This document shows, in pieces, positions 6,269-31,486 of a stretch of DNA of 64,000 nucleotides. The stretch's first letter is position 1. The number at the start of each line of letters is the position of its first letter. Origin of the DNA: a virus; IMG/VR virus record IMGVR_UViG_3300008450_000020, positions 1-64,000 of that record; one strand, 5' to 3'. The notes beneath the pieces are model-generated. The model ran no database searches. It worked only from the letters and a program-made list of their open reading frames with translations, and had not been told where the DNA came from. Made by a program: the position numbers and the translations under genes.

Positions 6269-6471
6269 TCTGGAATCCAGTTTTGTTGAATGTGGCACCA
6301 AGATATTTGGCAAGAATCTGTAATTACAAAACCAGGAACAATATCATTAAGTTCTCCCCCTAAACGATAGAAGAGGGATTCATTAATAGATATAAGTTGT
6401 TCATTGGTATCTACAATTACAGTCATTTGTTTCTTCCCATTAGGGAGAATTCTTTGGTTTTTGATTTGCAT
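6265..6471 (-). CDS. Small hypothetical protein
   Basis: A 68-residue protein (MQIKNQRILPNGKKQM ...). It is coupled to the next gene by ATGA overlap and lies two bases after the preceding stop. No recognised domain; support is its tight fit in the operon. Confidence 0.55.
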   Translation of the reverse strand: MQIKNQRILPNGKKQMTVIVDTNEQLISINESLFYRLGGELNDIVPGFVITDSCQISWCHIQQNWIPE

Positions 6472-6473
6472 GA

Positions 6474-6878
6474 TTAGTGAACAGTCATGTTTGGTTCAGA
6501 TACGTGTTCCATTGCATTATCATGCATGAATTGGATGCGTTTAAACCCTTCTTTATCAATGAAAGCAAAGTCTGTAGTTGGGACAGGAATATCAAAGATA
6601 TCTTCCCATGCAGATTTTCGGATAGCAATTAATTCGCCGGTACGATCTGCTTCATGTAATTTGATGTGAGCATGTTCTCCTCCGTTATCTACAACGATTA
6701 AGAAGAAGTAACCTGCTTCTTTCTGTTTAACATGTTCAGGGCATAGTGAGTACCCTGTGAAAGATTTGGGTTCTAATGAATTGCGCATTCGTCTATCTAG
6801 CAAAACAGTTTCAGTATGTTCTATCCCACATACAGGGCAAACTTCAAACCCCATTCCTACATGTGATTTTTCTGTCAT
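6474..6878 (-). CDS. Zinc-binding small phage protein, unknown
   Basis: A 134-residue protein with C-P-V-C-G-I-E-H near the N-terminus and L-C-P-E-H about 30 residues later, a plausible zinc site. A beta-rich segment follows (GYFFLIVVDNGG), then HAHIKLHEADRTGELIAIRK. It overlaps the previous gene by four bases (ATGA). Function unknown. Confidence 0.6.
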   Translation of the reverse strand: MTEKSHVGMGFEVCPVCGIEHTETVLLDRRMRNSLEPKSFTGYSLCPEHVKQKEAGYFFLIVVDNGGEHAHIKLHEADRTGELIAIRKSAWEDIFDIPVPTTDFAFIDKEGFKRIQFMHDNAMEHVSEPNMTVH

Positions 6879-7213
6879 ATTGATTTTCCTTTTTTGAATT
6901 GGAGTGAGACATAGATATCAACTGCTTTATCCATATCTTTTTTTGAGTGACTTATGCCCATTAAATTTAAATCCCATAAACTGAAATTACTTGGAGAGAA
7001 TTTTTTGGATTTGATTAGGGTTTTATATCTGGCTTGATCTCTAAGAGCTTCAGTAATTCCAGCTCCTTTAATAACATTGCCCTTATTAACACCTAATTGA
7101 AATGCGTGTGCAAATAAATCATACTCAGTATAATTTTTATTTGCTATCTTAAAATCTGTTAAGGCTCTTTTTATTCTAATGGGAAAAGTTACCTGTTTTT
7201 TTAAGGGCTTCAT
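6875..7213 (-). CDS. Hypothetical basic protein
   Basis: A 112-residue basic helical protein (MKPLKKQVTFPIRIKRAL ...). Overlapping start and stop with its downstream neighbour show that it belongs to the leftward operon. No motif recognised. Confidence 0.55.
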   Translation of the reverse strand: MKPLKKQVTFPIRIKRALTDFKIANKNYTEYDLFAHAFQLGVNKGNVIKGAGITEALRDQARYKTLIKSKKFSPSNFSLWDLNLMGISHSKKDMDKAVDIYVSLQFKKGKSI

Positions 7214-7215
7214 GA

Positions 7216-7470
7216 TTAAAAATTGAGTAATTTTTTTGCTGCAATTATTTGAGGAGGAATATTATCTGCGAATATAGGACTCCAACAAGAATATGTTGAG
7301 TCATTTGAAACTGTGAATGCACCACATTGATACCATACACCCTCATAAATAGAATATACAATGGAATTGATTGGGTATCTATTTGCATTAACAGAGTCGT
7401 CATCAGGAAGGGTTTTTAATACATAATCAGGGTATTCCCATAACAGAAACATAATGTCTTTATTGTCCAT
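7216..7470 (-). CDS. Distant member of the early tandem small-protein family
   Basis: An 84-residue protein. I chose the ATG at 7470, preceded by AAAGGAAAATT, over an upstream ATG at 7509. The end NIPPQIIAAKKLLNF matches the shared C-terminal pattern Pro-x-x-hydrophobic-x-Ala-hydrophobic-x-x-Leu-Leu of the eleven tandem genes at 25873-29240. The middle (NSIVYSIYEGVWYQCGAF) resembles their beta-rich region. It lies about 18 kb from the array, in the middle-type region. Function unknown. Confidence 0.6.
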   Translation of the reverse strand: MDNKDIMFLLWEYPDYVLKTLPDDDSVNANRYPINSIVYSIYEGVWYQCGAFTVSNDSTYSCWSPIFADNIPPQIIAAKKLLNF

Positions 7471-7514
7471 AATTTTCCTTTCTAAATATGTGGATACTTT
7501 AAAATACACACATA

Positions 7515-7540
7515 TTTAGAGCTTCTTACGAAGCTCTAAA
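7515..7540 (-). terminator. Strong hairpin, probable terminator
   Basis: A perfect 11-bp stem (TTTAGAGCTTC / GAAGCTCTAAA) closes a four-base loop that reads GTAA on the - strand. It lies between the VWA gene and the next leftward gene. There is no immediate U-run, so it could stabilise or process RNA rather than terminate. Confidence 0.6.
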
Positions 7541-7552
7541 ATAAACTAAGAA

Positions 7553-8845
7553 TTACTTCTTAGCTGGTTTGGTTACAGACCAACGGTAACTTTTTGTTGT
7601 TTTGTCATTAACAATAAGTGTTTGAGGAATACCTTCATTACGACAGTACATACGAGCATCATCACGAGTCTCAAAGTAAACTGTACGAGGTGTCACAGGG
7701 ATTGGTGACTTTGTTGGTTTGTTTGTAGGAGCAACTTTAGGCAATTCAACCACTGCTGGTTTAACTGCTTTAGGTGTTGCTGGCTTAGTAAACAAATCAA
7801 TTTCAGCTTGGGTAAATTCAACGCCCAAAGAAGCCATGTAAGCTACACCATAACCACCGACCAATTTACGATTGATAGATTCACTTTGGATGAACAAATC
7901 GAAGTTAGCATGATCGCCTGGGTGTAAACGTACATTCTGATGTGTTGGCAAACCCAGCATAGAACGTGCATCTGGGCCACTGAAGAACTTACCAGTTTGA
8001 CGATCACGAATCAAAATCAACTTGTGTGGGCCTACCTTAGCCTCAGTTTTGGACAACTGATAGAAAGCAGCACCTTTCAAGTATTTTTGACGATGACGCA
8101 AGATGAATGTTTGAATTTGGATACCATTGTCTTCTGCCGGCACAACATACAAGGAGATGTCTTTTGCCGGTACTTCGTTCAATGCAGCTACATTGACTTG
8201 AGTAGCATTTGCATAGAATGAGGAAGAAGCAGAAGCACCGCCAGCACGAGAACGGAAGTAACCAGTCATTGCAGTTTGTGTTTGAGCAGAAGATGCTGCC
8301 ATACCTGCAGATGTGGTTTCCCATTCTTGTACATTGTCTTCAGGCACACCAAGATTTTGTACGTACTTACGACCGCCTTTTGGTACACGGAAAACAAATG
8401 TCCATTTGCCTGTCGCTTGTTTGTCCTTGATTAACTTAGCAATGCTTTGGGCATTATAAGTTTTTGAACCGTTTTCTTCACCATCAGTGGTAATCATGAC
8501 CAAGAATGAGACATGATCTTCGCCAGCATCAGGTAAAGAACTGAATAATTCAACCATGTTACCAATACCATCGTACAAAGGAGTATTTCCAGGACAATCC
8601 CATTCAGTTACTTCTTTTAAAACATGTGGATTAGAAATAACTACTTGACGCATAACACGGTTATTTGTATAACCCAAGCCGATACCGACTACAGAAACTA
8701 CTGTGTCTAACATTTCTGCAGAAGCAGCCTGTTTGATTGCAGAGATATTTGCATTGTAGTCAGAGATTGCTGCTTTGCGCAAACTTTCCATTGAACCTGA
8801 GTGATCATTGACAAAGCCAATGTAATTCTTTGATTGTTTTTTCAT
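7553..8845 (-). CDS. VWA-domain protein with metal-binding MIDAS motif
   Basis: A 430-residue protein. The N-terminal VWA fold starts FVNDHSGSM, giving the MIDAS Asp14-x-Ser16-x-Ser18. A Thr in the NTPLYDGIG segment and MITTDGEENGS complete the site. A beta-rich region (about 215-340) and a Lys/Pro/Thr linker follow, then a C-terminal segment (TVYFETRDDARMYCRNEGIP). VWA proteins bind partners through a metal ion and usually work with MoxR-type ATPases, one of which is encoded at 15294-16367. The start overlaps the stop of an upstream 48-codon membrane gene. The partner is not evident from sequence. Confidence 0.8.
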   Translation of the reverse strand: MKKQSKNYIGFVNDHSGSMESLRKAAISDYNANISAIKQAASAEMLDTVVSVVGIGLGYTNNRVMRQVVISNPHVLKEVTEWDCPGNTPLYDGIGNMVELFSSLPDAGEDHVSFLVMITTDGEENGSKTYNAQSIAKLIKDKQATGKWTFVFRVPKGGRKYVQNLGVPEDNVQEWETTSAGMAASSAQTQTAMTGYFRSRAGGASASSSFYANATQVNVAALNEVPAKDISLYVVPAEDNGIQIQTFILRHRQKYLKGAAFYQLSKTEAKVGPHKLILIRDRQTGKFFSGPDARSMLGLPTHQNVRLHPGDHANFDLFIQSESINRKLVGGYGVAYMASLGVEFTQAEIDLFTKPATPKAVKPAVVELPKVAPTNKPTKSPIPVTPRTVYFETRDDARMYCRNEGIPQTLIVNDKTTKSYRWSVTKPAKK

Positions 8846-8988
8846 TTGGTTTCTTTCTTAGAGAATTTTTGTTTGATGCTACGGATTATGGAATTAGTCT
8901 TGTAACCAAGAATAAATCCAAGAACAAGTGCTAAAGCCATGGCAAGTACAACATCACCACGGCCAGCAAAGATGCCGACGGTTGCCAT
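8842..8988 (-). CDS. Short membrane protein (48 residues)
   Basis: A 48-codon gene, below usual length cut-offs. It starts two bases after the lipoprotein gene and its TGA overlaps the ATG of the VWA gene (ATGA). The protein begins MATVGIFAGRGDVVLAMALA, contains one membrane helix (VVLAMALALVLGFILGY) and ends in a basic tail (SIKQKFSKKETK). The tight spacing on both sides supports it being real. Function unknown. Confidence 0.65.
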   Translation of the reverse strand: MATVGIFAGRGDVVLAMALALVLGFILGYKTNSIIRSIKQKFSKKETK

Positions 8989-8990
8989 GA

Positions 8991-9407
8991 TTATTTTTCG
9001 ATTTTAGGAATCGGGAATGGAACCTTAGTCACTGGTTGACATTGACCGTCATCTGATGCATAAGTTTTCTTAGCAAAATCTGTATCAGTGAGACAACCAA
9101 CTGTCCCACTTACTGTTGAACATTTAAGTCCTGCCTTGACAGCAGGATTTTCTTTGCTTACCAATTTTGCAGATGCCCAACCATCACCTTGAGGACAAGA
9201 AGAAGACTGGGTTGAATCACCCTGGGTTTCTAAAGACCAGCCAGCATACTGAGTGATTTCAGAACGGAATTTCTTTGCGTTGTACTCAGCATTAGCTTTA
9301 GCTGTAGCACGGTTCAGTTCCGTTGTGTCAAAAGATGCTTCATTTTTACTGCAAGCTGAGAAAGCTACAACAGCCAGTGCTACAAGGAAAATACGATTAA
9401 ATTTCAT
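8991..9407 (-). CDS. Lipoprotein, unknown role
   Basis: A 138-residue protein. I chose the ATG at 9407; an upstream in-frame start at 9467 would run through the tRNA gene. MKFNRIFLVALAVVAFSAC is a lipoprotein signal peptide with lipobox FSAC and acylated Cys19. The mature protein has five further cysteines (SSCPQGDG, LKCSTVSGTVGC, GQCQPV) that could pair. Phage lipoproteins expressed before lysis may act at the outer membrane, for example in superinfection exclusion; that is only a possibility here. Confidence 0.7.
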   Translation of the reverse strand: MKFNRIFLVALAVVAFSACSKNEASFDTTELNRATAKANAEYNAKKFRSEITQYAGWSLETQGDSTQSSSCPQGDGWASAKLVSKENPAVKAGLKCSTVSGTVGCLTDTDFAKKTYASDDGQCQPVTKVPFPIPKIEK

Positions 9408-9439
9408 TTTATTTCTTTCAAAAGTTGAGGTAAAAAGAA

Positions 9440-9519
9440 TGGTATGCCTTGAGGGATTTGAACCCATCTGTCTATCGATTATGAGTCGATTGCTTTTACC
9501 GGACTTAAGCTAAAGGCAC
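9440..9519 (-). tRNA. tRNA with anticodon CAU (Met or Ile2), CCA encoded
   Basis: Read on the - strand. The acceptor is GTGCCTT / AAGGCAT (first pair G-U), the D arm GCTT...AAGC contains GG, and the anticodon stem is ATCGA / TCGAT with 7-base loop CTCATAA. The T loop is TTCAAAT, followed by the discriminator A and encoded CCA at 9442-9440. The T stem pairs as GAGGG / CCCTC only if one T is bulged out of the 5' strand. CAU could be elongator Met or, if modified to lysidine, Ile for AUA codons. Confidence 0.85.
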
Positions 9520-9526
9520 ATTCAAA

Positions 9527-12169
9527 TCACTTCCCGGAGGGAAGATTGTATTTCTCTTTGTGGGTATCACATAAAGAAACGATTTCTTCCCGTGAAGCAT
9601 TATTAGGAAGAGTTAATGGAGTAGCCCAAGATGGAAAATAAATATCCAGAGCTGCACCAAGTTTGACAGTGTCATGTTTTATTTCAGGAAGTTCTTGCCA
9701 TTGCATCGACTTGATTAATTCCCTATTTACCCATTCCACTACTTCTACCTCATCAATAATCAAGAGGTAAATTGCATCATGAATTAGAGCCACTGGGAGC
9801 ACTTTTTCTCTGTAAGGAGAGTTGTGTACCTTCTTCATGAAATCATTCGCTGCACGGTTGTTTAGTAAGCCGTATGACTGTCCTAAAGCATTCCCTGCAG
9901 TACGTCCTTCTGCTGCTGCTGCAAAAGGCATTTTCTTTGTATTAAACAAAACTTGTTTAAGCAAAGGAGTTCTTACACGCAAACCAAAAGCTACGGTTAC
10001 ATACCCATCTTTACTGGCTTGTATTAGCTTGTCTTGAACGTATTGATCAGATACCTTATACAACTCATGGTAATTCTTTTCAATGGCTTTAGCTTTCTCT
10101 TCTGAGAAGCCAAGGTTATTCATTAAAGTAATGTAAGTACCTTGATAGGTAAGAGCAAAGGTAGGTGCTTTTGATTCTTGCCTTAGTTTAGGGTGAGTAT
10201 CTTTAAGGGAGTTAACTGATACAGGATCAGTTACATCTACATGAAGCAATTCATCTCTAAAATAATAAGCAGCACGTAAGCAATGTCCGTCAAAACCTTG
10301 TTCATATACAGCTAACTTGTTTGGGTCTTTGGTAGTTAAGGCAGAAATGTAATCCTCAAGAGAATTAAAATCTGCACCAACATATAACCAACCAGGTGGA
10401 GCTTGGAAACATGATTTGATTAATTTACCAAATGTAGAACCACTAGGTAAATTTTGAAGATTCGGGCTACTACTACTAAGTCTTCCTGATACAGTCCCTC
10501 CTAAATTGAAGTTACCGAACAGGAAAACATAAGGACTGCTACTTATCCCATCTTTGTTAATTGCATTTTCAAAAGCAGGAATAAATGTAGTAAGTATTTT
10601 ATTGGTTTTGCCATAGTTGATAATGGCACTAAGCAATTCCTTATCTTCTGGTTTGTCAGTATGATGAATCAACTTTTCTAAAGTATCTGCACCAGTAGCA
10701 GGCTGTTTCTTATCAGTGTAATCAATGACAGGAAGTTTCAGAATGTCATAAAGTAGCTGCTGAAGTTGAGGCCCGCTATTAGGATTGAAAACAGAATCTT
10801 TAAAATGCTCTAAATTATGTTGCTTGGTTTTGAGTTTTGCATTTGCTTTCTGCATTAACGTATTCTGCAATAAAAAATTCATTGCCTTAATTACTGAAGA
10901 ATTATTAATGGTATCTACATGTGCTTCTCTTTGAGCAGCTAAATCATTCCTTACATTTATTACTTGATCACGATTCATAGGCATACCAGTTAACTCAAGT
11001 TGAATGATGGTCCTTAGACTCGGTAACATGATTACTTGATAGATTTGTTCCTGTTGGTCTGCAATCATTATTGGTGTGTATTTGTCCTTCACATACCAAG
11101 TAGATAATGCATCTATCAAATTGTATTCAAGTAATTCAGGAAGAGGAATTTTCCGAATATCCTTGATATCTGATTTAGCCCAATTACCGGCAAACTCATG
11201 TGCAAGATCTTTTAAGCCCAGCGTATTGCCGGCAGTAGAGTTAGTCGCAAGATAGCTAATGATTTTTGTATCATCAAAGTTATTATCTTTGGTGAATACA
11301 TCCAGACCTTCTAACAAACCTTTTGTGTCATTCATCCCTAATAACATGTATAGAGAATAGATGAGTACTTTCACATCGTAGGGTGCATTATGCCAAGTAA
11401 TCTTTCCAGTGTAAGTAGTAAAGAAATTACGTAACAAATCCCTTATACCAAAATTGGAATTTCTTCCAAGATACTCCCCGCCTACAACATTGTTGAATGC
11501 ATAGGCATCACAGGAAAATGCAATACCATTGTGTTTATCCCACGCAAAAGAAATAGTTCCAATACCTGCTCCATGAAACAAGAGAGAGAATGTTTCTATA
11601 TCACAGGTAAGTTCAGGATACTGATGCAAGCTTCTTAAAGCGTGATCAATTTCATGATACGTTTGTGGGTAATAGGCTGAATGGATAATGTTACTTCCTA
11701 ATACAACATGGCTTCCTGAATAGGTATTTGAAAGTGCTTCCAAACCAAGGATTAATTTATCTTTCAAGCCAGGGTTATAAATTAGTGCTTGATAATTAAT
11801 CCCCAGCACTACTTTCATATTTTCATACCCAGCTATTGCGCAAGGCAAGACATACCCATAATGAGGGTCTGCTTTAGTGCTCTTGGTTAATAGCTTAAAA
11901 TAAGTAGAATCACAAACGTATAAATACTCAGTGTGAATACTACTTAATGCAGGAAGCAATTCTTTCAAATATTCTTTGGCAAAGCTAACTGGGATTTTCC
12001 CATGTTCATCATAAGCCAGTGTGATGGCTACTACATCATTGGAAGATATTCCTCTCTGGTTTAATGGTTCAATGTAGTTGCTCAATAACTGTTGTTGATT
12101 AAAAGAAGATTCCTTTATCAAAACAGCTATTGGATATGTATTAGAGTTACCAAATGCAATATGCTTCAT
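9527..12169 (-). CDS. DNA polymerase, family A with 3'-5' exonuclease (N4 gp39-like)
   Basis: An 880-residue replicative polymerase. The exonuclease domain has CDIETF (Asp190, Glu192) and WHNAPYDVKVLIYSL (Asp265). The polymerase domain has a GRLSSSSPNLQNLP segment and motif A YVGADFNSLEDYI (Asp600). Motif B is RQESKAPTFALTYQG (Arg663, Lys667, Phe671, Tyr675). Motif C is ALIHDAIYLL (His797, Asp798), where the usual HDE is HDA. Length and motif set match N4-like phage polymerases. It follows a 205-residue gene and the helicase gene, the same local order I recall in N4 (gp37-gp38-gp39). Confidence 0.95.
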   Translation of the reverse strand: MKHIAFGNSNTYPIAVLIKESSFNQQQLLSNYIEPLNQRGISSNDVVAITLAYDEHGKIPVSFAKEYLKELLPALSSIHTEYLYVCDSTYFKLLTKSTKADPHYGYVLPCAIAGYENMKVVLGINYQALIYNPGLKDKLILGLEALSNTYSGSHVVLGSNIIHSAYYPQTYHEIDHALRSLHQYPELTCDIETFSLLFHGAGIGTISFAWDKHNGIAFSCDAYAFNNVVGGEYLGRNSNFGIRDLLRNFFTTYTGKITWHNAPYDVKVLIYSLYMLLGMNDTKGLLEGLDVFTKDNNFDDTKIISYLATNSTAGNTLGLKDLAHEFAGNWAKSDIKDIRKIPLPELLEYNLIDALSTWYVKDKYTPIMIADQQEQIYQVIMLPSLRTIIQLELTGMPMNRDQVINVRNDLAAQREAHVDTINNSSVIKAMNFLLQNTLMQKANAKLKTKQHNLEHFKDSVFNPNSGPQLQQLLYDILKLPVIDYTDKKQPATGADTLEKLIHHTDKPEDKELLSAIINYGKTNKILTTFIPAFENAINKDGISSSPYVFLFGNFNLGGTVSGRLSSSSPNLQNLPSGSTFGKLIKSCFQAPPGWLYVGADFNSLEDYISALTTKDPNKLAVYEQGFDGHCLRAAYYFRDELLHVDVTDPVSVNSLKDTHPKLRQESKAPTFALTYQGTYITLMNNLGFSEEKAKAIEKNYHELYKVSDQYVQDKLIQASKDGYVTVAFGLRVRTPLLKQVLFNTKKMPFAAAAEGRTAGNALGQSYGLLNNRAANDFMKKVHNSPYREKVLPVALIHDAIYLLIIDEVEVVEWVNRELIKSMQWQELPEIKHDTVKLGAALDIYFPSWATPLTLPNNASREEIVSLCDTHKEKYNLPSGK

Positions 12170-24483: not shown

Positions 24484-24520
24484 TAAAAAAAAATGAGACA
24501 CCTCAATTAAGAGATGTCTC
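24484..24520 (-). terminator. Strong terminator closing the early region
   Basis: On the - strand, GAGACATCTC / GAGGTGTCTC (10 bp with one G-T pair, 6-base loop) is followed by A and nine T. It lies directly after RNAP2. In N4 the early transcript also ends after the RNAP2 gene, so this is the likely end of vRNAP-driven transcription. Confidence 0.9.
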
Positions 24521-24571
24521 GGCACTACTACTTCAAAATAGGGGCAGGATGCCCCATGAAAGTTAATTGAA

Positions 24572-25822
24572 TTATGTTAAAGCATAATTAGACTTAAGAA
24601 TCAAACTAGATAAGTTGTTTGATTTCTTGGTGTAAGTTCCTTTGACACCATGAATCTGACTGAGGATATCTGAGAGTATTTCACTATCAGCTAATTCAGC
24701 AAAGATTTCAATGTAATGCTTACGTAACTGTTCCATATATTTAGGAGAACATTTATATTCATCATGAATAGTAATAATCTCAAATGGAGCATGTTCATTC
24801 ATACTCATACAGATCTCACGTAACTTAATCAACAATGAAGTAGGAATTGCTTTTGCATCTTCATAAGTCAAATAAGGAATCATTGTGATGTCTGTCATCT
24901 TGCTGCGTTCATACTGCTCCAAGTAGTAAGCCAACTTAGGAGAAGGTGTGCGGCCATGATAGCTAGTTGCGTATGTATTGCGATAATTAATCTCTGCATT
25001 AAGGATACTCAGTGCATTAATTAATTCATTTGGTTTGTAGTTACAACGACGGTGCATTGAACGTAAGATGTAAGCATCAATAGAGTGAATCACATTAGCT
25101 GCATTACTTAAACCAGATTTAGTACCTTCATTCTCATAATAATAATAAGTGAAAGTAGCATGATCCAATTCATCAACTTCAATACGAGCTTCCTTTTTCT
25201 GCATTACTTTTACACGCGCATAGAAGCCATCAGGAAGTGTCCATGCATGTACTTTAGCATTTGCTTGCCATGAACTCAAAAGCTCTTGGAGAAGCTCCCA
25301 TGCACCCGGAGCTACAATATTTGCAGCTTGATAGAATGCATTCAATTCAGGGGTATCTTCACCGAAGACTTCTTTAGGTACAAGATTTGAACCATAGAAT
25401 GAAGTCATCATAGCGCGCTTAGCATTATCTCTTGAAATATCAACTGATAAGCCTTGTTGAATAAGGATATTATTCATGGCTTGGGTTAATGAGGAATACG
25501 CATCTGCACGTACATCAGGATCAACTAAACCAGTTGCAGTAGCGCCGGCTATACAGCCTGTTATGGCACTCATGATTTGGATACCTGAGCATACTGAGTC
25601 TAGTCCTACAAGGTGCCCTGTAGGTTTTCCTGATTGAACCTGACGGATAGCTAAAACAGCTTTTTTGTACAGAGGTACTGTTTCTGCTTGAGCCGATAAA
25701 GCTTCAAGATTTTTGATGTTATCTGTAGCCCATTGAATACGTTCTTCAAATGTGACTTTATCTAAACCAAAGTGATTGGCTAAGTCGATGAGCATGTATT
25801 GAAATGGTGTATAAGATTTCAT
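24572..25822 (-). CDS. RNAP2, catalytic subunit of the split N4-like RNA polymerase (N4 gp16-like)
   Basis: A 416-residue T7-family palm/fingers subunit. Motif A is GLDSVCSGIQ (Asp75). Motif B is RDNAKRAMMTSFYG (Arg131, Lys135, Tyr143, Gly144). A VIHSIDAYILR segment and motif C TIHDEY (His353, Asp354) complete the active site. It lacks the N-terminal DxxGR part, which is in RNAP1, so the two must combine into one enzyme, as in N4, to transcribe middle genes. In N4 the two genes are adjacent; here about 3.4 kb of small genes separates them. Tyr143 is the normal residue, unlike Phe in vRNAP. Confidence 0.93.
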   Translation of the reverse strand: MKSYTPFQYMLIDLANHFGLDKVTFEERIQWATDNIKNLEALSAQAETVPLYKKAVLAIRQVQSGKPTGHLVGLDSVCSGIQIMSAITGCIAGATATGLVDPDVRADAYSSLTQAMNNILIQQGLSVDISRDNAKRAMMTSFYGSNLVPKEVFGEDTPELNAFYQAANIVAPGAWELLQELLSSWQANAKVHAWTLPDGFYARVKVMQKKEARIEVDELDHATFTYYYYENEGTKSGLSNAANVIHSIDAYILRSMHRRCNYKPNELINALSILNAEINYRNTYATSYHGRTPSPKLAYYLEQYERSKMTDITMIPYLTYEDAKAIPTSLLIKLREICMSMNEHAPFEIITIHDEYKCSPKYMEQLRKHYIEIFAELADSEILSDILSQIHGVKGTYTKKSNNLSSLILKSNYALT

Positions 25823-25872: not shown

Positions 25873-26133
25873 TTAATTGCCTATTAAGGCAATGAGTGCT
25901 TGAACTTGTGAAGGTAATTGTTCTAGTTGAGCAGTTTCCCAATTTGAACCCCCATTAGACATAGGGACGTACACATAGTAAATATGTTGTTCTCCGTCTC
26001 TATCTAAATATTGCCAGATAGAACCGTGTTCACGTTCATTAATATCTTCATGTACATCGTAATAAAGTATTTTTAATGTATCCGGAAATATCAATCTACC
26101 TAATAAATTTGGTTTTCTATGAAGGGTTGGCAT
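25873..26133 (-). CDS. Tandem early paralogue 11
   Basis: An 86-residue protein nearest RNAP2. It ends LPSQVQALIALI, the shared C-terminal motif of the array. The middle has YYDVHEDINEREHGSIWQYL and HIYYVYVPMSN, paralleling its upstream neighbour (ENIHDKQIGDIWTYIRG), so the two are sister copies. Unknown function. Confidence 0.65.
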   Translation of the reverse strand: MPTLHRKPNLLGRLIFPDTLKILYYDVHEDINEREHGSIWQYLDRDGEQHIYYVYVPMSNGGSNWETAQLEQLPSQVQALIALIGN

Positions 26134-26141
26134 GTACTTTC

Positions 26142-26399
26142 CTATTCTATTAGAGAAATTAAAGCTTTAATCTCAGGAGGAATATCTGTATAAGAGATGT
26201 CTCTCCATGACTCGATTATCTCTACAGAATGACAAATAAGGTGCAAACTATCCCCATATTGATGTCCTCTGATGTAAGTCCAAATATCCCCTATCTGTTT
26301 ATCATGAATGTTTTCCCCGCTATCAAAGAATAAAACTTCTTTGGTTGAGGGTCTTACAGTGAATCCTACTGTTTTAGGAGTTGGGTTTGTTGTAGGCAT
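26142..26399 (-). CDS. Tandem early paralogue 10
   Basis: An 85-residue protein ending DIPPEIKALISLI. The body (STKEVLFFDSGENIHDKQIG, then DIWTYI) aligns by eye with paralogue 11. Short intergenic gap with its own ribosome site. Unknown function. Confidence 0.65.
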   Translation of the reverse strand: MPTTNPTPKTVGFTVRPSTKEVLFFDSGENIHDKQIGDIWTYIRGHQYGDSLHLICHSVEIIESWRDISYTDIPPEIKALISLIE

Positions 26400-26408
26400 A
26401 AAGTTCCT

Positions 26409-26681
26409 TTATTTAATTAAGGTAAATGCAGCAAGTACATGAGAAGGAACTTCTGACTTATTGCGCAATAACCATCGAAAAGTTTTTGCAGAATTATTTG
26501 GAGTATGGAAATGATTCAATACTGCTTTATAAAAATACTCTTCTGTATTGGTGTGAACTCCGCATAACCATTCATGTTCTGATGAAGGAGATCTTGTATA
26601 AAAATATTCATTTTTATCCTTATGATCTACAACACATGCATTGGTTACAGAATCTACGATAATTATTTTTTCAAGGGTCAT
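26409..26681 (-). CDS. Tandem early paralogue 9
   Basis: A 90-residue protein with an AACAGGAATAACT leader before the ATG. Begins MTLEKIIIVDSVTNACVV and ends EVPSHVLAAFTLI. An aromatic middle (EYFYTRSP, EYFYKAVLNHF) fits the family's beta-rich region. Confidence 0.65.
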   Translation of the reverse strand: MTLEKIIIVDSVTNACVVDHKDKNEYFYTRSPSSEHEWLCGVHTNTEEYFYKAVLNHFHTPNNSAKTFRWLLRNKSEVPSHVLAAFTLIK

Positions 26682-26683
26682 AG

Positions 26684-27064
26684 TTATTCCTGTTGTATAT
26701 CTAATTTAATGCCTAGTAAATTCAATAAAGATATATGTATATCAGGGATGTCTTTTGTTTCACGAATATACGTGTACATACGTCCAAAGGCATTAGCAAT
26801 AGCATTAGTTTTGATAGCGAATCCTGAAGGAGAAATAAATAAAGTATCAGGAGGGTATAAAATAGATACGTCAATACACTCATTAGGATTCATCACCGCG
26901 TTATACATGTGAACACCGTGCCCAATCATAGGTAATTGATCGGGTTCTATCACAATGATGAATTTAGTGTCTCCCCCAATTGGATTATCAAGACTTGGGA
27001 TAACATCTAAAATAATTAAGTTTTCCTTGAATTCTTCAAGAAATTTGACAGGTGTTTCTAACAT
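26684..27064 (-). CDS. Tandem early paralogue 8
   Basis: A 126-residue protein. I chose the ATG at 27064 after AAAGGAAAATT over a start further upstream. It belongs to the longer subgroup: FIIVIEPDQLPMIGHGVHMY, DVSILYPPDTLFIS and a hydrophobic end DIPDIHISLLNLLG. The I-E-P-x-x-x-P ... D-hydrophobic-S-I-x-Y-P pattern is shared with paralogues 5 and 6. Confidence 0.7.
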   Translation of the reverse strand: MLETPVKFLEEFKENLIILDVIPSLDNPIGGDTKFIIVIEPDQLPMIGHGVHMYNAVMNPNECIDVSILYPPDTLFISPSGFAIKTNAIANAFGRMYTYIRETKDIPDIHISLLNLLGIKLDIQQE

Positions 27065-27074
27065 AATTTTCCTT

Positions 27075-27338
27075 TTATAAATCAAGAAGTTTAATGATAT
27101 TTTTGATGTTGTCTGGAACATGTAATGCTTGTACGTGTGACCATCTGTAAATGTAAGTAACCTCTGCATTCTTACCTAAAGAAGATATTCGTTTACTTGG
27201 GTAATAAGCTCTGCACCCTACATCAACATCAAACAACCATTGATCTTTATTGGTTGCTCTTGGTGTTCTAGATTCATTGATTAATGTAACTGCCATATTC
27301 TCATCGATGATTACAAATCGAGTGTCTTTATTATTCAA
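27075..27338 (-). CDS. Tandem early paralogue 7 (probable TTG start)
   Basis: About 87 residues. No ATG fits: alignment with paralogue 9 needs the segment TRFVIIDENMAV, which lies before the first ATG (27296). A TTG at 27338 follows TTGGAG with good spacing, inside the end of the previous gene. The protein ends VPDNIKNIIKLLDL. The start is the weakest part of this call. Confidence 0.55.
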   Translation of the reverse strand: MNNKDTRFVIIDENMAVTLINESRTPRATNKDQWLFDVDVGCRAYYPSKRISSLGKNAEVTYIYRWSHVQALHVPDNIKNIIKLLDL

Positions 27339-27693
27339 GATCAAGCTCCAATCCAAGTAAGGAAATCATTGCTCTGTTTTCTGCAGAAACATATTCAAAA
27401 TAATCTGCTTGAGTCCAGATCTCTGTCCAATGTTCTTCTGTTTCTTTATACACACGCATAACAAAACCATATCCATTAATGAATACAGTGTCTTCTGGAA
27501 ATAAGATAGAGATATCAATATACTTATTTTGACTGGGGTTAAATAAAGCGTCATACATCGATTCAGAATTACTGAATCTAACTGGTTCATTTGGCTCAAA
27601 TACCATAAAGAAAAATTCACCTATTTCAGAACACTTAAGAAGTAAGTCTTCTTTAAAGTATTCAAGCGTTCTATAAATTTTACGGTCAGTCAT
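27331..27693 (-). CDS. Tandem early paralogue 6
   Basis: A 120-residue protein from the ATG at 27693 with CGGAG eight bases upstream; other in-frame starts lie at 27699 and 27702. Longer subgroup: FFFMVFEPNEPVRFSNSESM, DISILFPEDTVFI, ending AENRAMISLLGLELDLE. Overlaps both neighbours slightly. Confidence 0.68.
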   Translation of the reverse strand: MTDRKIYRTLEYFKEDLLLKCSEIGEFFFMVFEPNEPVRFSNSESMYDALFNPSQNKYIDISILFPEDTVFINGYGFVMRVYKETEEHWTEIWTQADYFEYVSAENRAMISLLGLELDLE

Positions 27694-28045
27694 TTTCATC
27701 ACTCCGTTGAAATGATATGTTTAATAAAGACAAGGTTGCTTTAATTTGAGGAGGTAACTCCTTTAGCTTTTTAAGTGCTCTCCATTCACCACAAACAACC
27801 TTCATTGCATAAGGGAATCTACTATCTACTCCACTAAAGAAATATGTACCACTTGGGTAACGAATACTCATGTCATAAGTAGGATCATCATTACCAAATA
27901 TTGCGTAATATTGTTCTTCAGTATTACCAAATACAGGGGGTTTATTTGGTTCAAAGACGATTAAAAAATGCTGAGATCTCTCATCTGGAAATTGAATAAG
28001 TAAATCTCTCTTAAAGTGATTAAAACAGTTATACGTAAATTTCAT
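27686..28045 (-). CDS. Tandem early paralogue 5
   Basis: A 119-residue protein of the longer subgroup: HFLIVFEPNKPPVFGNTEEQ, DMSIRYPSGTYFF, ending LPPQIKATLSLLNISF. Side by side with paralogue 6 it shows the clearest pairwise similarity in the array. Confidence 0.7.
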   Translation of the reverse strand: MKFTYNCFNHFKRDLLIQFPDERSQHFLIVFEPNKPPVFGNTEEQYYAIFGNDDPTYDMSIRYPSGTYFFSGVDSRFPYAMKVVCGEWRALKKLKELPPQIKATLSLLNISFQRSDEND

Positions 28046-28062
28046 AATCTTCCTTATGTGAG

Positions 28063-28329
28063 TTATTTAAGCAAAGCAAGTAATGCTTTGTATTCAGGGT
28101 TGATATACCTGTCTGGTAATACTTGAGTTCGTGAATTAGATTTCACACCAATCCAGCTATTATTTCTGAAGCAGAAATATAAATCACCGGCTTGAATAGG
28201 CGAGTAACTTCCTCTTGCTACTCCATAAAGCAAATAGGGTTCTCTTCCATTACAAGGAATAATTAGCTTTTTGAATTTAGGATCTAATGGAGGAGAATTT
28301 TCATATTCTCCATTGTCAATAATTACCAT
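28063..28329 (-). CDS. Tandem early paralogue 4
   Basis: An 88-residue protein (MVIIDNGEYENSPPLDPK ...) with AGDLYFCFRNNSWIGVK in the middle and the end INPEYKALLALLK, a shortened form of the family motif. Overlaps the previous stop by seven bases. Confidence 0.62.
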   Translation of the reverse strand: MVIIDNGEYENSPPLDPKFKKLIIPCNGREPYLLYGVARGSYSPIQAGDLYFCFRNNSWIGVKSNSRTQVLPDRYINPEYKALLALLK

Positions 28330-28607
28330 ACGGTCCCCTCTATAAAATTTAATGGGTGTTCTGGAAGACCCCCCACATACAAAGTTAAAAATGCTTTTAT
28401 ATGTTCAGGGAATTCTTTAACAGGATTCTCTATGAAGTAATAAAATACATCTCCATCGGAATACCAAATAGTATAAAAAGGTTTTTTATCGTCACCAAAA
28501 CTATCCCATTCAGTACTAATAGGTTTATTTAGTGTGGTCATACCACAAGGAATGGTCATCATTTTAGTGAGATCATCTGTTATACGTATTTTACGAATGT
28601 TTTGCAT
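28323..28607 (-). CDS. Tandem early paralogue 3
   Basis: A 94-residue protein. It has the aromatic middle DGDVFYYFIENP and then EFPEHIKAFLTLYVG, the family motif, followed by a 15-residue extra tail. Unknown function. Confidence 0.62.
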   Translation of the reverse strand: MQNIRKIRITDDLTKMMTIPCGMTTLNKPISTEWDSFGDDKKPFYTIWYSDGDVFYYFIENPVKEFPEHIKAFLTLYVGGLPEHPLNFIEGTVW

Positions 28608-28616
28608 GTAGTATCC

Positions 28617-28928
28617 TTAAGGAAAATATGAAGATAGTTCATTAAATTGTGCAGTAGTTATTGCACCTATTAAGAATAAATAATTTTTGAAGATTTCAGG
28701 AACTTCTTTGGGAGATATAACGCTTCTTTTAGAAGTGAAATTACTTAAAGTAATTCTTTCATTCTCTTTGAAGGCATAATAAATAATCCCTGCACTTGTG
28801 TAACCAACAGTAAGATTTTCTATAGCTCTATAATCTCTTGTACCTGACCCATGCACAAGGATTTCAAACCTATCTTCAAGCACTCCCTTATCTATTTGCT
28901 GTGGTACATAAACATAAAATTTAAACAT
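28617..28928 (-). CDS. Tandem early paralogue 2
   Basis: A 103-residue protein. FKFYVYVPQQ at the start, GIIYYAFKEN in the middle and VPEIFKNYLFLIGAI near the end pair it with paralogue 1. A short tail follows the motif. Confidence 0.65.
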   Translation of the reverse strand: MFKFYVYVPQQIDKGVLEDRFEILVHGSGTRDYRAIENLTVGYTSAGIIYYAFKENERITLSNFTSKRSVISPKEVPEIFKNYLFLIGAITTAQFNELSSYFP

Positions 28929-28931
28929 ACA

Positions 28932-29240
28932 TTATCCTTCAATATTTCTAACACGTTTATTAATGTAATCAAGATCCTCTTTGTTTAACTCCCCTAGTAA
29001 CAATAAATAGTTTATGAAAACTTCTGGGAAATACTTAGGAAGCAAAGTCTTTCTATTAGCAGAAAATGAGTATTCACCAGCAGGTGTAGAATTGAGAAAA
29101 CAATAATAATCAATACCTTCTGCAACTAATTCATTTGTGACTTGATAAAGAGATTTTGGGTCATTCATGTCGAGTGAGTAATCAATAGTAAAATAGTGTT
29201 CTTGGCTTGGTATGTAAACGTAATACTTAAGATTGCTCAT
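28932..29240 (-). CDS. Tandem early paralogue 1, coupled to RNAP1
   Basis: A 102-residue protein whose ATG overlaps the RNAP1 stop (ATGA), so it is translationally coupled to the polymerase subunit. LKYYVYIPSQ, GIDYYCFLNS and FPEVFINYLLLLGEL make it a sister of paralogue 2. Expression should match RNAP1, that is early. Confidence 0.68.
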   Translation of the reverse strand: MSNLKYYVYIPSQEHYFTIDYSLDMNDPKSLYQVTNELVAEGIDYYCFLNSTPAGEYSFSANRKTLLPKYFPEVFINYLLLLGELNKEDLDYINKRVRNIEG

Positions 29241-30166
29241 ATAAATACTCCATCAATGTATTCTTCCTTATGCAATTCAATCATTGCTTTCTTGAATGCA
29301 GTCCCTTGTGGATTAATGTGATAGCCTTGAGAGTAAATTCTTCCTCTCTTATCTACCTTGTGAGTTAAATGAAATTGGTTATCTTGTTCTGCAATGAGGC
29401 TGTAGAAGCGATAACTAATCTCTTTGTGTTTCTTCCATTGGTTTCGTTTATCTGGAGTATCCAAAGTAAATGTAGGATCTTCAGATACCTTACAAAGGAA
29501 CTCTGTACATAACTTCAATTTCACTTGGTTCATCGTATTGAGAACATCAATACAGATATCCCCATTGTGATGATTGTGGGGGCCTAGGATCAATGAATCA
29601 TCATGAGTGAGATAACCACTCGAATAATTATTGATGAGCTGTCTAGGCTCACAAACCATGGGTGGAAGATATTGTGTATTTTCGATGAAACCTACAAGTT
29701 CTTCTGAGATAGGGATTCTTGAGACAATAACCAAGGAAGCATACTTATTCATTTTAAGAATATCGAATGCATCTGTGGAACATAGAACTGCTACTAGCTC
29801 TGCAACAGTTTTAATACTGTCTGCCTTGTCACTGAATTTGAGTCTTCCTGCCAACTCACCAGTGATACTGGTAAACAGCTCAGGTGTTTGGCAATAAGAA
29901 ATACCAACATAAATATCAATCACAAGCTCTCTAATATTCAAGGGTTTCAATTGCGCTACACGAGCATTCTTTGATTTGTATGAATAAGTCTTACTCATAT
30001 AATCTTTGATTGCTTGTACACCTTCATCAATCTTACCAATCATAAATGTATTACTAAGAATCTCTTTTCTAATTTTCTGGTCAATATGCTTTCTGTTATA
30101 ACGAAGTTCAGTCCATTCTTGACGGACGACATTGAGCATTGGCTCATAGGAAGTATCCTGATCCAT
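29237..30166 (-). CDS. RNAP1, N-terminal subunit of the split N4-like RNA polymerase (N4 gp15-like)
   Basis: A 309-residue protein. The C-terminal part has DKRGRIYSQGYHINPQG, the DxxGR motif (Asp272, Gly275, Arg276) with the INPQG that follows it in T7-family enzymes. Motifs A, B and C are absent and are found in RNAP2. The N-terminal two thirds are helical, corresponding to the promoter-handling part. RNAP1 and RNAP2 form the middle-gene polymerase in N4. The gene starts a leftward unit after a terminator and is coupled to the first of eleven small paralogues. Confidence 0.9.
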   Translation of the reverse strand: MDQDTSYEPMLNVVRQEWTELRYNRKHIDQKIRKEILSNTFMIGKIDEGVQAIKDYMSKTYSYKSKNARVAQLKPLNIRELVIDIYVGISYCQTPELFTSITGELAGRLKFSDKADSIKTVAELVAVLCSTDAFDILKMNKYASLVIVSRIPISEELVGFIENTQYLPPMVCEPRQLINNYSSGYLTHDDSLILGPHNHHNGDICIDVLNTMNQVKLKLCTEFLCKVSEDPTFTLDTPDKRNQWKKHKEISYRFYSLIAEQDNQFHLTHKVDKRGRIYSQGYHINPQGTAFKKAMIELHKEEYIDGVFI

Positions 30167-30193: not shown

Positions 30194-30238
30194 GAGAAAA
30201 AAAGAGTTACTTACCCTTGGATAACCAAAGGTAAGTTA
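30194..30238 (-). terminator. Rho-independent terminator before RNAP1
   Basis: On the - strand, a 12-bp stem (ACTTACCTTTGG / CCAAGGGTAAGT) with loop TTAT is followed by AACTCTTTTTTTC. It lies between the 95-residue gene and RNAP1, so RNAP1 expression must come from readthrough or an unrecognised start. Confidence 0.85.
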
Positions 30239-30612: not shown

Positions 30613-31128
30613 TTATGGTGTAAAGGTATAACAGGTGAACCGATCATTCAGTATCTTTTCAAGCACCGGTTTGACGACAGTCCACTCTAACTCACCAGCA
30701 CCACAGCCCGGCCTAGGCAGGATTACATTATTCCAACCAAAGGCATCAGTAAGCTTTACCAATTGTTCAGCAGACTGCTTGATAATTTTAAGTTCTGCTT
30801 TAGCATGAAAGCCTGGTACAGTTTCACCAATGGCATAACTATTTTGGACATGGCTTACAATATTATTCCCTTGGTTTACTGTATAAATAGGTTTAACAGG
30901 AAATGCAATCAATTGAATATTGTTGTATTCCATAATGATCTGAGTGACATTACCATTCTTCAACATGAGCTTACCTAGTGTGTTATGTATGTCTGGGATA
31001 GCACGAGCTATACTCAATGCAATACCTCTACCCATAACTGCAGTACCCTTGCTAGTAACAAATCCATTTGTTGTGACACATAAAGCATCACAATCAACAT
31101 GCAACATATTTCCAAATGCTTCTTTCAT
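30613..31128 (-). CDS. Macro domain protein (ADP-ribose binding/hydrolase type)
   Basis: A 171-residue protein. I chose the ATG at 31128 with a perfect AGGAGTTAAAA site over starts inside the terminator upstream. VTTNGFVTSKGTAVMGRGIA matches the macro-domain start (N-G ... G-x-A-V-M-G-x-G-I-A), and ILPRPGCGAGELEW is the phosphate loop. Macro domains bind or hydrolyse ADP-ribose and its derivatives. Early expression suggests a role in host takeover or in blocking NAD/ADP-ribose-based defence; that is inference. Confidence 0.85.
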   Translation of the reverse strand: MKEAFGNMLHVDCDALCVTTNGFVTSKGTAVMGRGIALSIARAIPDIHNTLGKLMLKNGNVTQIIMEYNNIQLIAFPVKPIYTVNQGNNIVSHVQNSYAIGETVPGFHAKAELKIIKQSAEQLVKLTDAFGWNNVILPRPGCGAGELEWTVVKPVLEKILNDRFTCYTFTP

Positions 31129-31201: not shown

Positions 31202-31486
31202 TTACAGACCGAAGCCTGGGAGAGCAAACTCTGCCGGAGCAGAATTGACTGCCGTGTATTCCAAGATCAACGCAGAGAGCAAGATCGCTACGTTATTCTC
31301 GTCTGCGTCTAGCCACTCACGTAAGTGTTTCTGATCTATGTTGGAATCTTTTAAACCGATTGCACCCAACTTTTTACGACTACCATCCTTCTTTGGGATG
31401 TAGAAATTCAAATAACCGGTTGGGTTATCTTTTACTGCATTTGCATTGTTACCAGAATCAGATTGATTGTCTTTGTTAAAGGCCAT
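31202..31486 (-). CDS. Small early protein, unknown, own promoter
   Basis: A 94-residue protein. The N-terminus is polar (DNQSDSGNNANAVKDN). Then PTGYLNFYIPKKDGSRKKLG, AIGLKDSNIDQKHLREWLDA and a hydrophobic end follow. It sits alone between a GCGAAGC promoter and a terminator, implying strong early expression. I think similar proteins occur in other N4-like phages, but I do not know a function; nucleic-acid binding is possible. Confidence 0.65.
   Translation of the reverse strand: MAFNKDNQSDSGNNANAVKDNPTGYLNFYIPKKDGSRKKLGAIGLKDSNIDQKHLREWLDADENNVAILLSALILEYTAVNSAPAEFALPGFGL

Follow-up and report, generated by a model that had tools for sequence, protein, structure and literature searches.

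What are the eleven small open reading frames (ORFs) that separate RNAP1 from RNAP2, the genes of two subunits of phage RNA polymerase II (RNAPII), in the virus record IMGVR_UViG_3300008450_000020, and what might their products do? The window analyzed here comprises positions 1 to 64,000 (64 kb) of this 73.6-kb IMG/VR record and comes from an N4-like phage (Schitoviridae); the best matches of its RNAP2 among named phages were all N4-like Schitoviridae, at no more than 48% identity. We propose, with a probability of about 50% for the explanation as a whole, that the array represents a hypervariable locus of accessory genes in the Schitoviridae, built mainly from one protein family, whose members are exchanged between phages and would act early in infection on host proteins. 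The family, its locus and the exchange are very likely real, whereas the host-directed function of the members falls a little short of even odds.

The 11 ORFs, all on the minus strand and 85–126 amino acids (aa) long, occupy the RNAP1–RNAP2 interval, with adjacent genes overlapping by 7–8 nt or lying 2–17 nt apart and the end of gene 11 located 50 nt from RNAP2. ORF coordinates and RNAP profile matches thus bore out the first-pass annotation, which had described eleven small, tightly packed ORFs running in one direction between the two polymerase genes. The starts of genes 6 (27331–27693), 7 (TTG at 27338) and 8 (26684–27064) were revised by their ribosome-binding sites. The features of the interval are listed below, with family-profile E values referring to the search of window ORFs described after the list.

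29237..30166, minus strand: RNAP1, N4 gp15-like subunit of RNAPII, upstream border of the array (phrog_2166, E=1e-97; synteny in relatives)
28932..29240, minus strand: array gene 1, 102 aa, subgroup 1/2, overlapping the RNAP1 end by 4 nt (blastp against gene 2, E=1e-11; family profile E=0.022)
28617..28928, minus strand: array gene 2, 103 aa, subgroup 1/2 (direct match to the family profile at E=0.52; connected via gene 1)
28323..28607, minus strand: array gene 3, 94 aa (family profile E=0.057; top window match of the body-only profile, E=0.1)
28063..28329, minus strand: array gene 4, 88 aa (family profile E=0.061; score of 15.7 with a position-specific scoring matrix of the tail)
27686..28045, minus strand: array gene 5, 119 aa, subgroup 5/6/8 (blastp against 6 and 8; family profile E=0.003)
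27331..27693, minus strand: array gene 6, 120 aa, subgroup 5/6/8, start moved to the ATG at 27693 (blastp; family profile E=0.012)
27075..27338, minus strand: array gene 7, 87 aa, TTG start, the weakest member (family profile E=2.5, rank 13 of 249; recovered by a profile that includes gene 7)
26684..27064, minus strand: array gene 8, 126 aa, subgroup 5/6/8, a member through 5 and 6 (blastp against 6, E=2e-14; missed by the outside-family profile alone)
26409..26681, minus strand: array gene 9, 90 aa (family profile E=0.022)
26142..26399, minus strand: array gene 10, 85 aa, subgroup 10/11 (blastp against 11, E=6e-12; family profile E=0.011; hhalign of 10/11 against the family, P=2.6e-6)
25873..26133, minus strand: array gene 11, 86 aa, subgroup 10/11 (family profile E=8.5e-4; hairpin and helix in the C-terminal half of its AlphaFold2 model)
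24572..25822, minus strand: RNAP2, N4 gp16-like subunit of RNAPII, downstream border of the array (phrog_2051, E=4e-149; Pfam RNA_pol)

Similarity within the array was uneven. The two subgroups recognized on first reading, 5/6/8 and 1/2, were both recovered by blastp (E=2e-14 to 3e-8 and E=1e-11, respectively), together with a third, 10/11 (E=6e-12), that had been missed, and genes 3, 4, 7 and 9 gave marginal matches at best to other array genes. A hidden Markov model (HMM) of the family was built from 57 seed ORFs of other phages, none from the window, expanded to 159–167 members and run against the 249 window ORFs of ≥45 aa. Nine of the eleven array genes and one extra copy made up the top ten, the extra copy (7216–7509) ranking first (E=3.9e-4), followed by genes 11, 5, 10 and 6, then 1 and 9, and then 3, 4 and 2. 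The extra copy is the following feature:

7216..7470, minus strand: twelfth family member, 84 aa, outside the array (top of the window ORFs with the outside-family profile; sole non-array match in the 73.6-kb record)

This stray member (MDNKDIMFLLWEY...IPPQIIAAKKLLNF) is located in another gene cluster, ~18 kb from the array. A profile that included the window members gave exactly twelve matches across the record, namely the eleven genes and 7213–7452. Comparison of the window subgroups with the family by hhalign gave single-comparison P values of 2.6e-6 (10/11), 3.2e-5 (5/6/8) and 1.6e-4 (1/2); these alignments cover the last strand and the helix. The mutual relatedness claimed for the array therefore held when profiles were compared, and the sequence comparisons support the view that the eleven genes are one diverged and undescribed family.

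The common C-terminal pattern that the first-pass annotation had assigned to all eleven proteins was present above chance but proved looser than claimed: genes 4 and 6 lack Pro at the proposed place, the fit of genes 7 and 8 is poor, and the pattern of genes 1, 2, 3 and 5 stands 11–20 residues ahead of the end. The similarity of the last 12 residues exceeded that of random control ORF sets (z=3.4 to 3.6, p<0.004), and the signal was strong in relatives. Such a signal could be a by-product of tight packing, with the last codons holding the Shine–Dalgarno site and start of the next gene, and this is largely true in other clades. In the arrays of Vibrio phage L008, whose protein bodies are unrelated, the tail score decreased from z=7.3–7.8 to 3.0 after removal of the overlap, and the tails contain GGAG and the next ATG; at locus L077 the score decreased from 2.1 to 1.0. 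In the window, however, dropping the residues coded within 22 nt of the next start codon left z=5.6, the same removal left the relatives L019, L002 and L131 at z=5.8–11.3 (11.3 for L019), and the window pattern can be as far as 20 residues from the stop. Because the signal persists after the ribosome-binding-site overlap is removed, the tail reads as a protein feature in this family, for which packing is a highly improbable explanation that we rejected; for the Vibrio-type arrays it still stands.

Two further ideas about the tail were tried and rejected. The idea that unrelated bodies carry a universal C-terminal docking tag, prompted by the Vibrio arrays and by the enrichment of tail scores in non-family ORFs of the interval, lost most of its signal after residues within 16–22 nt of the next start were dropped and is at best a weak possibility. 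Mimicry of RNAP1, suggested by the resemblance of the K-A-x-x-x-L tail to FKKAMIEL near the RNAP1 C-terminus, was dropped, since the tail varies among phages while the RNAP1 stretch is constant. In the Vibrio phages of the Nahantvirus type (L008, L175 and L176), the gap holds 4–7 tiny overlapping ORFs with unrelated bodies (zinc-ribbon-like, helical and beta); their RNAP2 proteins are 96% identical, yet one gap carries seven ORFs and another four, and their shared KMxxLxDE ends are mostly accounted for by the next gene's ribosome-binding site and start.

The same address is used in other phages. The first lead was Pseudomonas phage MAG4 (Litunavirus), which has three ORFs (86, 93 and 90 aa) at this locus, whose ends carry the motifs LPADLKAMLVIWSL, PPPTLRALVIVWGI and IPKELQALLTIYGL. 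Relatives were collected by profile scans for RNAP2 and RNAP1, which yielded ~150 IMG/VR loci, some of them sharing contigs; a scan of IMG/VR with the single RNAP2 sequence, unlike the profile scan, gave no match. The RNAP1–RNAP2 gap in these relatives ranges from 0 to 3.9 kb and frequently contains tandem small ORFs with the same tail. Family members account for 144 of the 270 distinct small ORFs inside the gap, compared to 15 of 1235 upstream of RNAP1. Copies were found at 53 of 118 non-redundant loci (1–14 at each, with the window array among the largest), making the address predictive: members occupy the RNAP1–RNAP2 gap in about half of the related N4-like loci examined. RNAP1 directly abuts RNAP2, with no member between them, in 18 of the 65 other loci, suggesting that the family is dispensable. 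At three loci (L043, L046 and L058), a few weak family-like small ORFs were located downstream of RNAP2 (..TQELRALLLLQQ, ..LMPQLRAALLLQT).

Among cultured Pseudomonas phages, LIT1, PEV2 and MAG4 carry the family at this locus and provide a tractable system. The Litunavirus ORFs between RNAP1 and RNAP2 (LIT1 gp20–22, MAG4 020–022; PHROGs 8597 and 8144) have the same locus and size as the window array, are matched by the same profile, and share the N-terminal strand, a conserved Trp and the C-terminal P-x-x-h-K/R-A helix; they differ in numbering three or four copies instead of eleven, in showing no similarity to the window proteins detectable by tblastn, and in being annotated only as hypothetical. 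A further Litunavirus ORF (PHROG 8585) lies just upstream of RNAP1. One member of the collection (PP852688, L003, 'Photobacterium phage TEMp-D2', unverified) has an RNAP region ~94% identical to that of Pseudomonas Litunavirus, and its host label may be wrong.

Exchange and dN/dS were measured in these relatives. In Litunavirus, RNAP1 and RNAP2 are 94–99% identical, yet slot 2 of the array is filled by one of at least three different genes, and slot 3 is optional, an extra copy of the slot-4 type that is either present or absent. L136 and L140 share one slot at 98.5% identity and the remaining slots at 55–76%; the 98.5% slot has no counterpart when L136 is compared with L137 (RNAP2 97.6% identical). 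Synonymous divergence (dS) was raised in the swapped slots, which points to exchange between diverged lineages. The closest relative of 121 of the 144 members sits in another phage, and identity within one array does not exceed 54%, arguing that the members are ancient paralogues passed from phage to phage and not products of recent duplication in place; the window is an exception in that 1/2, 5/6/8 and 10/11 are each mutually closest. The ratio dN/dS (omega, NG86) of array homologues was 0.03–0.66 for most pairs and below 1 in every computable pair, so the genes encode maintained proteins under purifying selection. On these sequence data the locus is best described as one that exchanges cassettes of real proteins, not one of recent duplication with fast amino-acid change. 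The repeated duplication and divergence proposed at first thus stands as repeated gain, loss and replacement, not as recent local duplication, and the suggested arms race is compatible with the data in a gene-swapping form, while the data give no sign of one fought by amino-acid change within genes.

The predicted fold of one relative suggests a common scaffold for these proteins. The AlphaFold2 model of a 76-aa relative (L019:9758–9988, 90-sequence alignment; predicted local distance difference test score, pLDDT, of 88.9; predicted template modelling score, pTM, of 0.78) contains strands at residues 4–8, 11–16, 28–31, 43–49 and 52–56 and a helix at 63–71. The model of window gene 11 (82-sequence alignment) had an overall pLDDT of 62.7 with most of the N-terminal half below 60, and its C-terminal half reproduced the hairpin and helix of the relative at pLDDT 77–86. 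Conserved, core-like columns in the family alignment are aromatic 7, Gly10, Gly26, aromatic 28, Trp44, hydrophobic 61-Pro62, Leu70 and Leu/Ile/Val71, and large insertions are confined to the N-terminus, the β2–β3 loop and the β4–β5 loop. The proteins are soluble, with mostly negative grand average of hydropathy (GRAVY) and varied charge. Foldseek found no significant match of the predicted fold in PDB (best E=1.0) or BFVD (best 0.59); because small folds give Foldseek little power, a new fold is only suggested by these models.

The first-pass statement that no described family was known agrees with our searches. The array proteins tested gave no significant match in Pfam, PHROGs or PDB to any described family with a function, and tblastn of the concatenated array, as well as of its concatenated relatives, against 50,697 phage records returned no match. 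PHROGs covers only a few Litunavirus members, all of them without function ('unknown function'), and the family goes unmentioned in the openly readable papers searched, which deal with LUZ7, LIT1 and PEV2, with other N4-like phages and with the virus family as a whole.

The transcription context was assessed by a pattern scan for intrinsic terminators, which is a pattern match and not proof. Two minus-strand hairpins flank the polymerase genes:

30209..30236, minus strand: intrinsic-terminator-like hairpin upstream of RNAP1 (12-bp stem followed by a T run; fold z=−3.2)
24495..24520, minus strand: intrinsic-terminator-like hairpin downstream of RNAP2 (pattern scan only)

The scan found no terminator-like hairpin between these two on the minus strand. 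With hairpins at both ends and none between on that strand, a single transcription unit seems to span RNAP1, the array and RNAP2, and the array is therefore probably made early in infection. Just past RNAP2, at 24541–24555, a GC-rich perfect hairpin with a 3-nt loop recalls the N4 vRNAP promoter hairpin, with no comparable set elsewhere.

These results fit the following scheme. Each gene would encode a small soluble protein on a compact scaffold of five β strands and a short C-terminal helix (V-P-x-x-h-K/R-A-x-x-L-L), in which the β2–β3 and β4–β5 loops vary in length and sequence. The proteins would be produced early through the RNAP1–RNAP2 transcription unit, and recombination around the conserved RNAP genes would let phages acquire, drop or trade individual members. 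Each member may bind and block or redirect a different host protein, in takeover of the cell or in counter-defence, and a different target for each member would explain why the repertoire changes and the scaffold does not. Position, size, dispensability, cassette exchange and a scaffold with variable loops are all consistent with a set of early accessory proteins directed at the host, and we regard the initial proposal of inhibitors of variable host targets as a reasonable one. More tentatively, the array may be a recognition repertoire, a fixed mini-scaffold whose variable loops are retuned in up to 14 linked copies for different host proteins and traded among phages; if true, it would amount to a phage version of a binder library, built on a fold not seen before.

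Several observations weigh against this explanation. The regular expression used to select the HMM seeds was modelled on the tail pattern, which makes the tail signal partly circular, and a profile of the bodies alone was weak, with only genes 3, 1 and 7216–7470 ranking high in the window. Among the 249 window ORFs, gene 8 was not found with the top outside-profile matches and gene 7 was not directly linked. No whole-gene positive selection was seen among the computable homologue pairs (NG86), and both exchange and dN/dS come from phages outside the window's own genus and are carried over to the window. Early expression of the window array is probable from gene order and terminators only, and a search for early-promoter hairpins gave no convincing set. 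No sequence or fold match to any defence system was found, and no member has an assigned function or partner.

The array proteins could instead be small accessory or specificity factors of RNAPII, produced along with its two subunits, that alter its use of phage promoters. Their strict position between the subunit genes in many phages and the apparent single transcription unit would suit such a role, as would the likely Drc homologue encoded at 31202–31486; helper proteins such as N4 gp2 and Drc are known to be required by N4-like RNAPII (PMC9729221). However, members are absent between the adjacent RNAP1 and RNAP2 of 18 loci (counting the gap only) and cassettes swap between phages with RNAPs 97–99% identical, which weakens this explanation. 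The conserved polymerase is accompanied by anything from 0 to 14 copies, the twelfth copy of the window sits apart at 7216–7470, and the tail shows no co-variation with the RNAP1 C-terminus, leaving a polymerase role unlikely.

Somewhat less likely still are two explanations in which the host is not the target. Proteins acting against competing phages, by superinfection exclusion or in other inter-phage conflict, would form a repertoire that tracks competitors; the turnover among near-identical phages of one host species fits any frequency-dependent conflict, as does the early position, but the proteins are hydrophilic overall, unlike typical membrane exclusion proteins. Alternatively, the RNAP1–RNAP2 junction may be mainly an insertion hotspot kept open by homing endonucleases, with the small ORFs as dispensable passengers. 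HNH-like endonuclease ORFs were recognized by eye in the gap of L015, L077, L081 and L090, and the RNAP2 gene of phage VL1 is split by a homing endonuclease; against mere passengers stand an omega well below 1 with intact frames, the dominance of one family in the gap, and the orderly slots across L116, L136, L137 and L140. The L077 gap (6395–9999) holds a different type of array at the same address, ~10 ORFs, many of them coiled-coil-like and ending in xxLIG, plus its HNH-like endonuclease.

A host-directed accessory repertoire would have precedents in kind. The early host-takeover clusters of the SPO1/T7 type contain many small early proteins of unknown or host-inhibiting roles and are mixtures of unrelated proteins; the array shares the many small proteins, in its case probably early, but repeats one scaffold up to 14 times. 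The internal-protein (IP) locus of T4-like phages is hypervariable and places small exchangeable accessory proteins, some shown to counter host defences, between conserved genes. In T4, a common N-terminal peptide targets the IPs to the capsid, from which they are injected after packaging. The array resembles this locus in being a hypervariable small-gene locus between conserved genes, a link by type, with none found in sequence or fold; it differs in that its proteins show no sign of packaging and have related bodies, where the IPs are unrelated bodies with a shared peptide. Anti-restriction functions have been described for injected phage proteins (PMC12373910). In N4-like LUZ7, a cluster of 29 small genes lies near the right terminal repeat (PMC3715699), likewise a large accessory cluster of small genes with no assigned function but at another location and with no paralogy reported. 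Thus, hypervariable accessory loci are known in phages, and what distinguishes this one is that it consists mainly of a single undescribed family in up to 14 copies at a fixed address inside a split RNA polymerase. For a large pool of phage 'hypothetical proteins' exchanged as cassettes, the analysis supplies a common family, together with a predicted fold and a fixed place in the genome. If members bind different host proteins, each array would amount to a list of host targets or defences together with small protein inhibitors of them.

Two genes upstream of RNAP1, both on the minus strand, are of additional interest. The ORF at 31202–31486 matches phrog_6271 (E=1e-7), labelled 'toxin' in PHROGs, and its product is presumably a homologue of Drc, the single-stranded DNA-binding RNAPII cofactor of LUZ7. 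The ORF at 30613–31128 matches phrog_335 ('phosphatase') and reads like a macro domain.

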